DNA of 34,103 nt. It comes from Verrucomicrobiota bacterium (lineage in GTDB: Bacteria; Verrucomicrobiota; Verrucomicrobiia; Chthoniobacterales; UBA10450). The stretch is from the NCBI GenBank assembly GCA_003217875.1, contig QHMR01000105.1:1-34103 (forward strand). Direction: 5' to 3'. This document shows, piece after piece, positions 30,745-34,103 of this stretch (within the stretch, counting starts at the first letter, position 1; each line of letters begins with the position of its first letter). A program made the translations under genes and the position numbers. The notes beneath the pieces were generated by a model, which was not told the DNA's origin, ran no database searches, and saw only the letters and a program-made list of their open reading frames with translations.

Positions 30745-31194
30745 TTATGCCTCGATTACGACTGGCGTCCCCTGGTCCACTAAATCGAATAGCTCAATTA
30801 CATCCGCGTTTAGCATTCTGACACAACCGCAGCTGTCCGGCTTGCCGATCTTGTGCTCATGTTTCGTGCCATGGATGTAGATGAAGCGGTCGCGCGTATT
30901 GGCATTCTGCTCGTCTAATCCGTCGAGCCATAAGATACGCGACGTGACCAGATCTTCCGTTGGCGGAAGCGGATCGCTGGGCTTGAGCGGCATGCGACTT
31001 TGGAAAATTGTGCCGCTCGGCATGTCGCCGCCAATCTTTTTCGCTACCGAAAATCGACCCGTTGGCGTTTTCATGCTGCCTTCTTCCGTTCCGATGCCGA
31101 ATCGCGAAGTGGACACCGGGTAACTGCGGATCGGCGTCTCATCCTCCTTCAATGTCAGTCGCTGATTACGAATTGATACATGGATGCTCTTCAT
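30745..31194 (-). CDS. L,D-transpeptidase-like YkuD protein without signal peptide
   Basis: The 149-residue protein is almost only a YkuD domain (from about residue 5). The active-site text is FIYIHGTKHEHKIGKPDSCG then CVRM: His108, and Cys124 as nucleophile. In most members the motif reads SHGCVR or SHGCIR; here position 122 is Cys, giving SCGC. Substitution of that His could change activity, although Cys124 and the following Arg are kept. No signal peptide is visible, so it would have to act in the cytoplasm or be exported otherwise. It has only weak similarity to the other two YkuD proteins in the window. Confidence 0.8.
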   Translation of the reverse strand: MKSIHVSIRNQRLTLKEDETPIRSYPVSTSRFGIGTEEGSMKTPTGRFSVAKKIGGDMPSGTIFQSRMPLKPSDPLPPTEDLVTSRILWLDGLDEQNANTRDRFIYIHGTKHEHKIGKPDSCGCVRMLNADVIELFDLVDQGTPVVIEA

Positions 31195-31355: not shown

Positions 31356-31919
31356 TTACACTTCCGAAACGTTCTCACGTCCGTGGCGAAGCACACGTGC
31401 CATCCATGTTAATTCATTCAGAAATTTGTCCACACGTCGAACATAAGCTTGATCGAGTAATTTTCCCTGCTCGTCGAAAATATTTCGCACGTTCCCGAAA
31501 TTGACGTCCTCGAAAATTGTAACCAGACCCAACTCCCGCATGACCGGCAGCAGGCCCTCGATCACGCGAGCCCCGCCAAACGGCCCCGCCGACACGCCGC
31601 AAATTCCAACCGCCTTGTGAATGTATTCTTTCAAATTCATATCGAGCGCGTGTTTCAGAAGCCCCGGATAACCGTGATTGTATTCGGGCGTGACAATGAT
31701 CAGCCCGTCGCAGCGATCGATCATCGCCGAGAACGTTGGGTCCTTCATTTGCTCGCCTGCATCATCCAGTTTCATTGGGAGTTTGCACACATCGATCAGT
31801 TCCGTCTCCACATCCGCGCGCTTCTTTGTCTGCTCAAAAACGAAACGCGCGACGTTCTCGCTCTGCCGTCCCTAACGCGCAGTTCCGAGAACAATGGGAA
31901 TAAAAAGAGGGCGCTCCAT
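31356..31919 (-). pseudogene. NADPH-dependent FMN reductase interrupted by a TAG codon
   Basis: Reading from ATG 31919 gives MERPLFIPIVLGTAR, TAG at 31872-31874, then GRQSENVARFVFEQTKKRADVE leading into METELIDVCKL... in the same frame. LGTARxGRQS is the family's FMN phosphate-binding loop, so codon 16 is probably a mutated Lys codon. The rest, including DGLIIVTPEYNHGYPGLLKHALD and GAR near the end, is a normal flavodoxin-like NAD(P)H:FMN/quinone/azo reductase domain. An internal ATG at 31811 would make a 151-residue protein without the FMN loop, probably inactive. Length from the first ATG, 187 residues, matches the family. Confidence 0.82.
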
Positions 31920-31952
31920 CTATCCGCTTTCCGCTATCCGAAATTGAAAAAC

Positions 31953-32039
31953 TGCCGATGGCCGGACTCGAACCGGCACGGGCCTTTTACGGCCCAACGG
32001 ATTTTAAGTCCGTTGCGTCTACCATTTCGCCACATCGGC
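31953..32039 (-). tRNA. tRNA-Leu (anticodon TAA)
   Basis: An 87-base class II tRNA on the minus strand. The acceptor stem GCCGATG pairs with CATCGGC, the anticodon stem ACGGA/TCCGT encloses CTTAAAA with anticodon TAA for leucine UUA (and UUG by wobble), a long variable arm follows, and the T arm is GCCGG-TTCGAGT-CCGGC. The discriminator is A and CCA is not encoded. Confidence 0.96.
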
Positions 32040-32118: not shown

Positions 32119-32286
32119 GAAAGCGTTTCGTTGTGCACGTCATGAAAAGCTGACTGCGTTTGCTGAGGTTGAATCAGCGATGCGCGCTTACAGCGAATTG
32201 ATTTGACATATTGGCGAGATTTTTCCAACCTCCGCGTCGCTACGCGCATCTGAATCAGGCGGAGGCCATTTCCCCGCTAGGTTCTT
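32119..32286. repeat. 168-bp direct repeat, copy A (decayed gene remnant)
   Basis: This stretch closely matches 33871-34037 in the same orientation: both begin GAAAGCGTTTCGTTGTGCAC, share ATGAAAAGCTGAC, and end CATTTCCCCGCTAGGTTCTT. Its plus-strand reading includes KAFRCARHEKLTAF, and copy B gives DEKLTAFRELESAIR after a one-base shift, suggesting a remnant of a coding sequence. The source gene is not recognised. The 79 bases between tRNA-Leu and this copy hold nothing identifiable. Confidence 0.75.
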
Positions 32287-32287
32287 G

Positions 32288-33178
32288 TTAGCTGACCCTC
32301 TGGGCAGGTACAATGACATTGACAGCGCTTGGCACAAAACTGATCTCCGCCTTCCTACCTACCTTCACCCTTTCTCCATCGAGAAGTATCGGAATATCTT
32401 TGCTTGATTGCACAGTCACCCGTTTGGTTTTGCTGACGCTTATCTTTTGGGCGTCGCGCCATTTGCCAACGGCAGCGGCAGTCGCAAGGCCGATTAGTTC
32501 GATTGCGTTCTCCACATTAATGAAAGCGGCTTCAAGCGCTTGCTCCGACTCAGCCATTTGTTCCGATATGAGCGGGCAGATAACAGCGACGACTTCAGCT
32601 TCGCCATTCGTTTCCGATGAAATGAAATACTGAATCTTCGCATCGAACATTTCCTGGAAAGCGAAGGTGCCTGTTTTGATTGCATCAACAATGTCACCTT
32701 CGCGAAGAGATTCGCGAGCCTCCACCCACAGCGCAGGCGCACCTATAATGGCGGCAACAAAAAACTGGTTGTCTTCGACGCGGCCTCCGGAAAGGATCTT
32801 TATTACAGGATCAGCGAGCGTATTTTTAAGCGCGTTTTCCCATGAAACCTCTCCATACAACGCTCGAGGGAGCATATTCATCGTTCCGCCGGGCAGCGGC
32901 AGAAGGTACATGCCGCGCCTGCTACACGCTTCTGCAGCGGTCCGAATGGTGCCGTCCCCTCCGAGCACGATGAGCACCTCGAGCTTCTGCACCGCTGCTT
33001 CGGCGAACGACCGCTCCATTTGATCTGCCTCTCCACACCAGGTTTTGCACTCTGTCACGCCCGCACTCCCAAGGACGCTAAGCAATTCTGCCTCAGATCC
33101 GGAGTCGCAGCCTCCGCTTGAGGTGTTGATTATGACTCCAAAGCTTAATTCTGAAAGACGGATGGCGGTCGATGCCAT
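32288..33178 (-). CDS. diacylglycerol/lipid kinase-family protein
   Basis: The 296-residue protein has the DAGK catalytic (PF00781-type) layout: an opening strand FGVIINTSSGG, the nucleotide motif VLGGDGTIRTA at 71-81, the PLPGGTMNMLPRAL segment at 94-106, and a C-terminal beta domain ending DIPILLDGERVKVG, normal for YegS/DgkB-like lipid kinases. These phosphorylate diacylglycerol, sphingoid bases or related lipids at the membrane. The substrate is unknown. It lies between two direct repeats and is divergent from the next L,D-transpeptidase. Length is typical. Confidence 0.88.
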   Translation of the reverse strand: MASTAIRLSELSFGVIINTSSGGCDSGSEAELLSVLGSAGVTECKTWCGEADQMERSFAEAAVQKLEVLIVLGGDGTIRTAAEACSRRGMYLLPLPGGTMNMLPRALYGEVSWENALKNTLADPVIKILSGGRVEDNQFFVAAIIGAPALWVEARESLREGDIVDAIKTGTFAFQEMFDAKIQYFISSETNGEAEVVAVICPLISEQMAESEQALEAAFINVENAIELIGLATAAAVGKWRDAQKISVSKTKRVTVQSSKDIPILLDGERVKVGRKAEISFVPSAVNVIVPAQRVS

Positions 33179-33253
33179 ACACAGATCTAATCCAATTGAA
33201 CTATTTGTTCATGTGAACGGCTGGAAAACTTCGCGTACCCGATTCCATTGCTA

Positions 33254-33784
33254 ATGAATCGATTTTCACAATTTTGGGCGCTCTGCGCGATCTTCATGGC
33301 CTTGAGCGCCTGTAGCACTATGACCGACATGGTCACATCGAATTTACCAGAGCGTCATTCAGGCCGGCCGTCGATCGTCGTGAGCTTGCCAGAGCAAGAA
33401 GCCTATCTCTACCGTGGAGGGTATAGAGTCGCGTCGTCTCGCATATCGAGCGGCCGGGAAGGATACCGCACTCCGACTGGTGACTTTCAGGTGATCCGTA
33501 AGGACGAGGATCATCGGTCCAGTCTCTATGGTGATTATGTTGATGACTCAGGCCATGTCGTGAAGGCCAACATCGATAGCCTGCGTGACCGTAGACCGCC
33601 GCATTCGCACTTCGTGGGCACCCCGATGCCCTACTTCCTTGAATTCTCGCCGGGCTACGGATTGCACCAGGGTTACCTGCCCGGCGTGCCTGCATCACAT
33701 GGATGCATTAGGATGCCCTATTGGAAAGCGCGCCAGTTTTATAACGCCGCTCACATCGGGACACCTGTGCTGGTAAAACGCTAG
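33254..33784 (+). CDS. lipoprotein L,D-transpeptidase (YkuD domain)
   Basis: From ATG 33254 the 176-residue protein has a lipoprotein signal (MNRFSQFWALCAIFMALSAC, lipobox LSAC with lipidated Cys20) and a YkuD domain with GVPASHGCIR, nucleophile Cys about residue 151. It therefore sits in the outer or inner membrane facing the periplasm and probably makes 3-3 cross-links or anchors proteins to peptidoglycan. It is a close paralogue of the 18183-18821 gene, sharing several motifs through the domain. It is divergent from the lipid kinase gene, with the promoters in the 75-bp gap. A TTG two codons earlier is also in frame. Confidence 0.92.
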   Translation: MNRFSQFWALCAIFMALSACSTMTDMVTSNLPERHSGRPSIVVSLPEQEAYLYRGGYRVASSRISSGREGYRTPTGDFQVIRKDEDHRSSLYGDYVDDSGHVVKANIDSLRDRRPPHSHFVGTPMPYFLEFSPGYGLHQGYLPGVPASHGCIRMPYWKARQFYNAAHIGTPVLVKR

Positions 33785-33870
33785 CCAAGTAAGCAAAGTC
33801 ATCGGCTACGTCCTTCACAACCCACCACTGAAACGAACGAACTGAATTGCTGACGCGCATCGCGGCGACA

Positions 33871-34037
33871 GAAAGCGTTTCGTTGTGCACACCGATGAAA
33901 AGCTGACCGCGTTTAGGGAACTCGAATCTGCGATTCGGGGGCGGCTTTTTGGCTTGACAAGGCGGCGAGGTTTTTCCAAACTCGGCGTCGTCAAACGGAT
34001 CTGAATCAGGCGGAGGACATTTCCCCGCTAGGTTCTT
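33871..34037. repeat. 167-bp direct repeat, copy B
   Basis: This second copy of the 32119-32286 repeat has several substitutions and one indel, which breaks the reading frame after RCAH. The remaining 33785-34103, about 150 bases around it, contains no gene I can see; it ends in an AG-rich tract at the window edge. Confidence 0.75.
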
Positions 34038-34103
34038 CGCCCCTTCCGGACCCGCAATCCCAGAAAGTAACTCAGCGGGGAAAAGGAAAAGAAAGGAAGA
34101 ACC

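Follow-up and report, generated by a model that had tools for sequence, protein, structure and literature searches.

The window, by which we mean the whole 34,103-nucleotide stretch of DNA analyzed here, is the end of contig C115 in an assembly of 2.45 Mb that is 84% complete. It contains two copies of a degenerate direct repeat, A and B, which lie on the same strand about 1.75 kb apart, just as the preliminary description had reported. Their identity in a global alignment is 80% (133 of 166 aligned bases). The local alignment score of the pair is 155, against a maximum of 28 for 1000 shuffles of B, and the similarity is arranged in blocks of 89 nt at 83%, 43 nt at 79%, and 20 nt at 100% identity. 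A tRNA-Leu with the anticodon TAA (31953-32039, minus strand; found by ARAGORN and as Rfam RF00005) lies 79 bases from copy A, and the interval between the copies carries a diacylglycerol-kinase-like gene encoding a DAGK_cat protein (32288-33178, minus strand; PF00781, E 4.7e-13) and an L,D-transpeptidase gene encoding a YkuD protein (33248-33784, plus strand; PF03734, E 5.1e-21). The tRNA-Leu, the lipid kinase, and the transpeptidase had all been named earlier, and each was recovered.

Both copies are composite. The 5' part of copy A (32119-32206, plus strand), recognized by its match to the S family described below, is the truncated tail of an S gene, frameshifted in the A/B alignment, and the TGA that ends this tail overlaps the -35-like hexamer of a promoter-like pair (TTGACA, 17 nt, CAACCT; 32203-32231, plus strand). 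This is followed by only the first part of a 5' leader (32232-32286, plus strand; positions 1-85 of the leader model correspond to 32203-32286), which breaks off at AGGTTCTT within a hairpin loop, a single base short of the stop codon of the kinase gene. Copy B begins with a 5'-truncated S gene tail that has an internal stop (33834-33953, plus strand; also an S-family match), continues with TTGACA, 17 nt, and CAAACT (33954-33982, plus strand), and closes with a leader (33983-34103, plus strand; model positions 1-143 correspond to 33954-34095) that reaches approximately the expected start-codon base, where the contig ends. Copy B is therefore present as described but longer, with an S part from about 33834 and a leader running to the contig end at 34103. 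Both promoter-like pairs were identified by reading the sequence, and a consensus promoter scan of the window missed the TTGACA pair. Copy A survives as a relic that the kinase gene interrupts, and copy B, which is 91% identical in its leader to a leader of the relative G007, is a full leader whose gene lies beyond the contig end; because the contig stops at the end of the window, the sequence 3' of B is out of view.

A search of the genome with copy B returned ten matches, namely B itself, A (E 2.3e-33), and eight others, and most of the matches beyond A span just the first ~67 bases. Further copies thus exist, and the suggestion that A and B are remnants of one repeated gene is borne out for the 5' half, the tail of S with its ten matches in this genome, but not for the 3' half, which is a promoter-like and leader module. 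The nearest copies to A are one in G012 (78.8%) and B (78.7%), and those nearest to B are in G012 and G014 (83%). As A and B are not clearly each other's nearest relatives, they are old members evolving separately, and a recent local duplication of one into the other is unsupported.

Comparison of the tRNA-Leu locus was possible in nine relatives from the genus, and the kinase and transpeptidase are missing from the fetched stretch in all nine, while eight of them lack both the repeat and the interval; the fetched stretch covers just ~500-570 bases of the far side in G007 and G010 and does not include the FMN reductase neighbor in five other relatives. The FMN reductase gene adjoins the tRNA-Leu in G010, G011, G009, and G007, as it does in the window, and in G010 a repeat copy sits where the window has its copy with respect to the tRNA and points the same way, with a leader that leads directly into an open reading frame (ORF) with a signal peptide. 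In G006 and G001, the closest kinase homologs (67%) lie at sites other than this one, and close homologs of the transpeptidase lie elsewhere in G005 (86%) and, in broken form, in G010 (83%). We infer that the kinase-transpeptidase pair was placed at the tRNA-Leu site in this lineage. A plausible history would begin with a leader unit beside the tRNA-Leu, after which DNA carrying the kinase and transpeptidase may have entered and broken copy A in its hairpin loop, leaving copy B still leading into a gene past the contig end.

Two minor features of the neighborhood are worth recording. The FMN reductase gene (31356-31926, minus strand) has an apparent in-frame TAG at about codon 16 of the frame normally read, at a site where relatives read TARQGRQ, and just a shorter, GTG-started frame is open in the window, so that the gene could be a pseudogene or reflect an assembly error. 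In addition, two YkuD genes (30745-31194 and 33248-33784) lie less than 3 kb apart, and YkuD is an expanded family with ten matches in this genome.

The small gene S and its predicted fold

Alignment of full copies from relatives identifies the 5' module of the repeat as the end of a small gene, S, of about 65 residues, the open copies of which read like MKYWEIIADNLSKAGWSWGCVSAIDSNGRTIWIADAHRGDGKRFVVRADEKLTAFLELESAIR plus a short tail. S matches sum to 217 in 18 of 19 genomes of the genus, this one included, with 1 to 35 in each and none in G009, and DNA matches to copy B are likewise present in 17 of 18 relatives, again excepting G009. Outside the genus, a single S match was found in one of ten genomes from other families of the order, and copy B has a match in one of ten such genomes that is weak (E 8e-4 over 25 bases). 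Among 288 genomes sampled from the phylum, S matches occur in the genome of the window and in three of the 287 others; the match in G204 (E 1.1e-11, a 71-amino-acid open frame) is the convincing one, those in G060 and G192 (E 3e-4 to 8e-4) are probably due to chance, and none was found in the sample's two same-family genomes of other genera. The homolog in the distant genome G204 (L201, 1486-1701), a single 71-residue open frame, may offer a clue to the original function of S. A further copy lies on a viral contig in IMG/VR (L170, 1649-1846; 67% to the typed consensus), the sole one in that collection, and transport of S by phages is possible.

The fetched loci contain 147 distinct S hits; of the 37 that are nearly complete, 32 have an open frame. 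In an alignment of 34 near-full copies, conservation begins at the start codon and ends near the end of the frame. All pairwise comparisons among the 32 open copies give a pN lower than pS, with a median ratio of 0.41, and variation is greatest at third codon positions, with the reservation that these copies were picked by protein match, a choice that favors a low ratio. The orientation of S relative to its neighbors is weakly biased, as 58 of the 97 copies with enough flank (from 122 supplied) follow an ORF on the same strand, compared with 600 of 1316 control placements. Neither Pfam nor NCBIfam gave a match to the typed consensus of S at E ≤10, and 32 S members have just scattered weak matches in Pfam, the commonest being Arylsulfotran_2 (10 of 32, best E 0.0065).

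The AlphaFold2 model of S (pLDDT 92.2) is predicted to have a helix at residues 3-13, strands at 17-24, 30-38, and 42-48, and a second helix at 51-64, and this corresponds to the alpha-beta-beta-beta-alpha order of a dsRNA-binding domain (dsRBD). The best VIA match of the model is the third dsRBD of Loquacious (Z 9.0, rmsd 2.1 over 64 residues), and 16 of 999 chains align to it at Z of at least 8, those listed being dsRBD-bearing chains; sequence identity to the structural matches listed is 3-17%. Foldseek returned nothing for the model at E ≤0.001, the best match being a dsRBD protein complex at E 0.014. The Pfam dsRBD family is absent among the matches of the S consensus (E ≤10) and of 32 members (E ≤1), and when the S profile was run against the sequences of solved structures, nothing convincing emerged (best E 0.037). 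In dsRBDs, the second helix opens with a basic KKxAK motif; S, which appears to share their helix-strand-strand-strand-helix order, differs in that this helix begins DEKLTAF (alignment A2) and the KKxAK motif is missing. Since the RNA-binding motif and a sequence match are both lacking, RNA binding by S is put forward here as a hypothesis drawn from the modeled fold. A reading of S as a HicA-type toxin, a class with the same general fold, was set aside; alignment A2 contains no invariant histidine.

The promoter-like pair and the 5' leader

The 3' module of the repeat consists of TTGACA, 17 nt, CAAACT, and a leader of ~110 nt that ends in a GAAAGGA ribosome-binding site and ATGAATC, with the promoter-like pair and leader together spanning ~150 bp. 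The TGA stop codon of S falls inside TTGACA wherever a leader follows, and the -10 hexamer is poor, agreeing with the consensus at three of six bases by hand count. Leader matches number 60 in 22 of 35 genomes of the genus, the other 13 showing none, and exact matches to the leader pattern occur in nine stretches, only in records labeled Verrucomicrobia, Chthoniobacterales, or Candidatus Udaeobacter sp. AEW3. The composite repeat belongs to one genus of soil Verrucomicrobia, probably the Candidatus Udaeobacter group. Conservation was assessed for 49 distinct leaders, a subset, as some leader matches had no locus, and it is concentrated in blocks (TTGACa, 95%; CTGAAT, 94%; GGTTCT and GACCcG, 93%) within a core that is largely 86-94% conserved, the linkers between blocks being 64-69% conserved. 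This blockwise pattern argues for constraint beyond recent copying alone. At the gathering cutoffs of Rfam 15, only tRNAs were found in the window, and ten loci had no family other than tRNA at E ≤5, so that the leader does not correspond to a known RNA family in that collection. A search of open-license papers for a 'Spartobacteria-1' RNA motif found nothing.

A hairpin, P1, may form within the leader. In copy B its arms are TTTCCCCGCTAGGTT and AACTCAGCGGGGAAA (34020-34083, plus strand; inverted repeat I7), and it was evaluated from pair counts in alignment A4, which holds 39 of 40 candidate leaders, L068 (E 2e-4) having been left out. The CCCCGCU/AGCGGGG helix and its flanking pairs are paired in 90.4% of cells, compared with 50-66% (at most 66.3%) when the arms are slid as controls, and four of nine pairs have changes on both sides across the 39 leaders. 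Between 10 and 32 of 500 shuffles reach the measures observed for P1, and the covariation support is therefore modest. Six leaders folded singly gave z-scores from -0.9 to -2.8 and prefer an alternative in which GGUUCUUC is paired with GAAGAACC, or a near form of it, beside the start codon; for the alternative fold, the pair counts are weaker than for P1, and 12 to 49 of 500 shuffles reach the observed measures. The pairing of GGTTCTTC with GAAGAACC was rejected as a conserved structure, its helix being paired in 78% of cells and one of its pairs in just 16 of 38. The alternative fold is kept as a possible second state, and a switch between it and P1 is conceivable.

The S tail lies directly upstream of 20 of the 49 distinct leaders, often 17-18 nt away, a share that is biased upwards because the query used to gather part of these leaders contained the S tail; by eye, shorter S tails precede a few more. 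S is present in every leader-bearing genome and also in five of the six leader-free genomes with an S count, and their co-occurrence therefore says nothing about whether S and the leader depend on each other.

Leader-led genes and the origin of the repeat

Among the 49 leaders, 35 directly precede an ORF of at least 90 amino acids (leader E ≤1e-10, start no more than 12 bases from the leader end). By a simple hydrophobicity rule, 34 of these 35 ORFs are signal-peptide-like, and the remaining one has a hydrophobic stretch with no early K or R. At E 1e-5, 16 groups can be distinguished among their mature parts, a number that could be an overcount, as some ORFs may be frameshifted fragments. The largest group (18 of 35) contains NTAxG-repeat proteins, and Peptidase_S74 (PF13884) was found in both of its members that were scanned; in the ten leader-led proteins compared with Pfam, the other matches were Kelch-like or FN3-associated, and five had none. 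We take the exported Peptidase_S74 proteins to be YadA-head-like. The leader also serves 15 other groups and is lacking from the S74-type genes checked in this genome (L212-L217).

Homologs of the exported protein at L086 occur in 16 of 35 genomes and have three kinds of 5' end. A leader with a related signal peptide is found in G016, G041, G038, G001, and G015; a second kind of N-terminus, without the leader, in G000, G029, and G012; and a third, without an adjacent leader, in G003, G031, and G013, with a leader-like stretch roughly 500 bases upstream in G031. The remaining homologs are fragments or distant and were left unclassed. The leader-plus and leader-minus groups lie at different loci. 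Similarly, an FN3-associated protein has the leader in one of three genomes (G037) and not in G016 or G018, which share a common locus for this gene while that of G037 is elsewhere, and DNA similarity among the three genes starts at approximately the start codon. The existence of related mature proteins that have the leader and others that lack it, with differing signal peptides and at different loci, indicates that 5' ends and gene bodies have recombined.

We consider it likely that A and B are members of a composite repeat, made up of an S tail, a promoter-like pair, and a leader, often with the start of a signal peptide, that has spread by recombination. In order, the repeat has the 3' end of S, with its TGA over TTGACA, then the promoter-like pair and the ~110-nt 5' leader, which could form a hairpin just 5' of a strong ribosome-binding site and start codon, and often the first ~30 codons of a common signal peptide. 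The module would be transcribed from TTGACA and may place exported proteins under common expression control, conceivably through the hairpin and an alternative pairing that would hide the ribosome-binding site. Its spread would proceed by recombination events connecting a gene body with a leader, the junction lying close to or exactly at the start codon or the signal-peptide boundary.

The leader might instead be the inherited 5' end of one large adhesin-like paralogous family, with no exchange of modules and with the variety of mature proteins due to rapid divergence and frameshifts. A single group does hold 18 of the 35 leader-led ORFs, with Peptidase_S74 in both scanned members and NTAxG repeats in many, and arrays of leader units occur (L083 and L084). 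Plain descent is nevertheless unlikely in light of the 15 other groups, Kelch-like and FN3-associated proteins included, of a family with alignable mature parts that has three different 5' ends, and of an FN3-associated protein that retains, after the leader, a signal peptide of its own. Also doubtful is a reading of S as an actively mobile or selfish element, nonautonomous and dependent for its movement on a transposase of the Y1 (RAYT-type) or another kind, with the leader hitchhiking as a neighbor. The bounded conservation of S in the 34 aligned copies, its copy number of up to 35 matches per genome, and the copy on a viral contig would suit such an element, whereas S went undetected upstream of 29 of the 49 leaders, and pN is below pS in all pairs of open copies, though these were picked by protein match. 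Visual inspection of the ends of 19 near-full S copies, and of the consensus of 34, showed no terminal inverted repeats or target duplications, and no clean empty-site pair was found. Y1 transposases (PF01797) are encoded, mostly in multiple copies, by 33 of 35 genomes of the genus (G000 and 32 of the 34 others, in incomplete assemblies), including G009, where S and the leader are both absent, and went undetected in G002 and G005, which both have S; their presence does not parallel that of S or the leader, and mobilization by them is doubtful.

The preliminary description had also proposed that A and B are remnants of a mobile unit, or the edges of a module that recombination could delete or amplify. 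The first proposal is unsupported, as no transposase, terminal repeats, or target duplication were seen in the unit, and the second is partly supported. For A and B to be the ends of a transposon-like module that carries the kinase and transpeptidase and can be lost by direct-repeat recombination would accord with their single orientation and 1.75-kb spacing, with the absence of the interval beside the tRNA-Leu in all nine relatives inspected (the repeat being absent in eight), and with the position at which copy A stops, one base from the kinase stop codon. We regard this as very unlikely, however, since neither A nor B is clearly the other's nearest copy, the homologs closest to the kinase and to the transpeptidase sit apart in relatives, many copies elsewhere do not flank either gene, and copy A is partial; deletion or amplification by recombination between A and B is unproven, no such event having been observed. 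Building on the modeled fold, one could further imagine a self-contained cassette of the Udaeobacter group in which S is a dsRBD-fold RNA-binding regulator of the adjoining leader, and in which an export regulon was built by capturing exported-protein genes behind the start codon or signal peptide, but we consider this highly improbable.

A composite repeat spread by recombination can be compared with systems described elsewhere. Promoter propagation in prokaryotes by mobile promoters was reportedly treated by van Passel, Nijveen, and Wahl in 2014. Mobile promoters are similar promoter regions that occur in several copies per genome before unrelated genes. The leader module, a putative promoter by its conserved TTGACA pair, resembles them in preceding 16 mature-protein groups among 35 leaders. 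Homologous genes with and without the module exist, at different loci. The Udaeobacter repeat differs in being longer, with a 5' leader and often a common signal peptide, in being tied to exported proteins, and in often adjoining the S gene; the genus-wide 5' module can be regarded as a mobile-promoter variant to which a leader, a signal peptide, and a small companion gene have been added. REPINs and their RAYTs, in which short intergenic repeats are kept in many copies (PMC8049555), are similar in their copy number, and Y1 transposases are present in the genus. In contrast, S is a coding unit without a REP palindrome pair, and the presence of copies does not track that of Y1 transposases in these incomplete assemblies. 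Open-license papers yielded no description of the S family or the leader and nothing on the control of exported proteins in the Udaeobacter group. If one leader serves so many unrelated exported proteins, it would offer a way into the surface and secretion program of this group and would exemplify how a regulon can be assembled in nature through the exchange of modules. The leader is a candidate cis-regulatory RNA missing from Rfam 15, and S is a high-copy family whose fold-based function hypothesis is testable. Finally, one locus (L083, 3215-7109) holds a local array of three leaders within 4 kb, each before a different ORF, and two of the three have a common upstream sequence.
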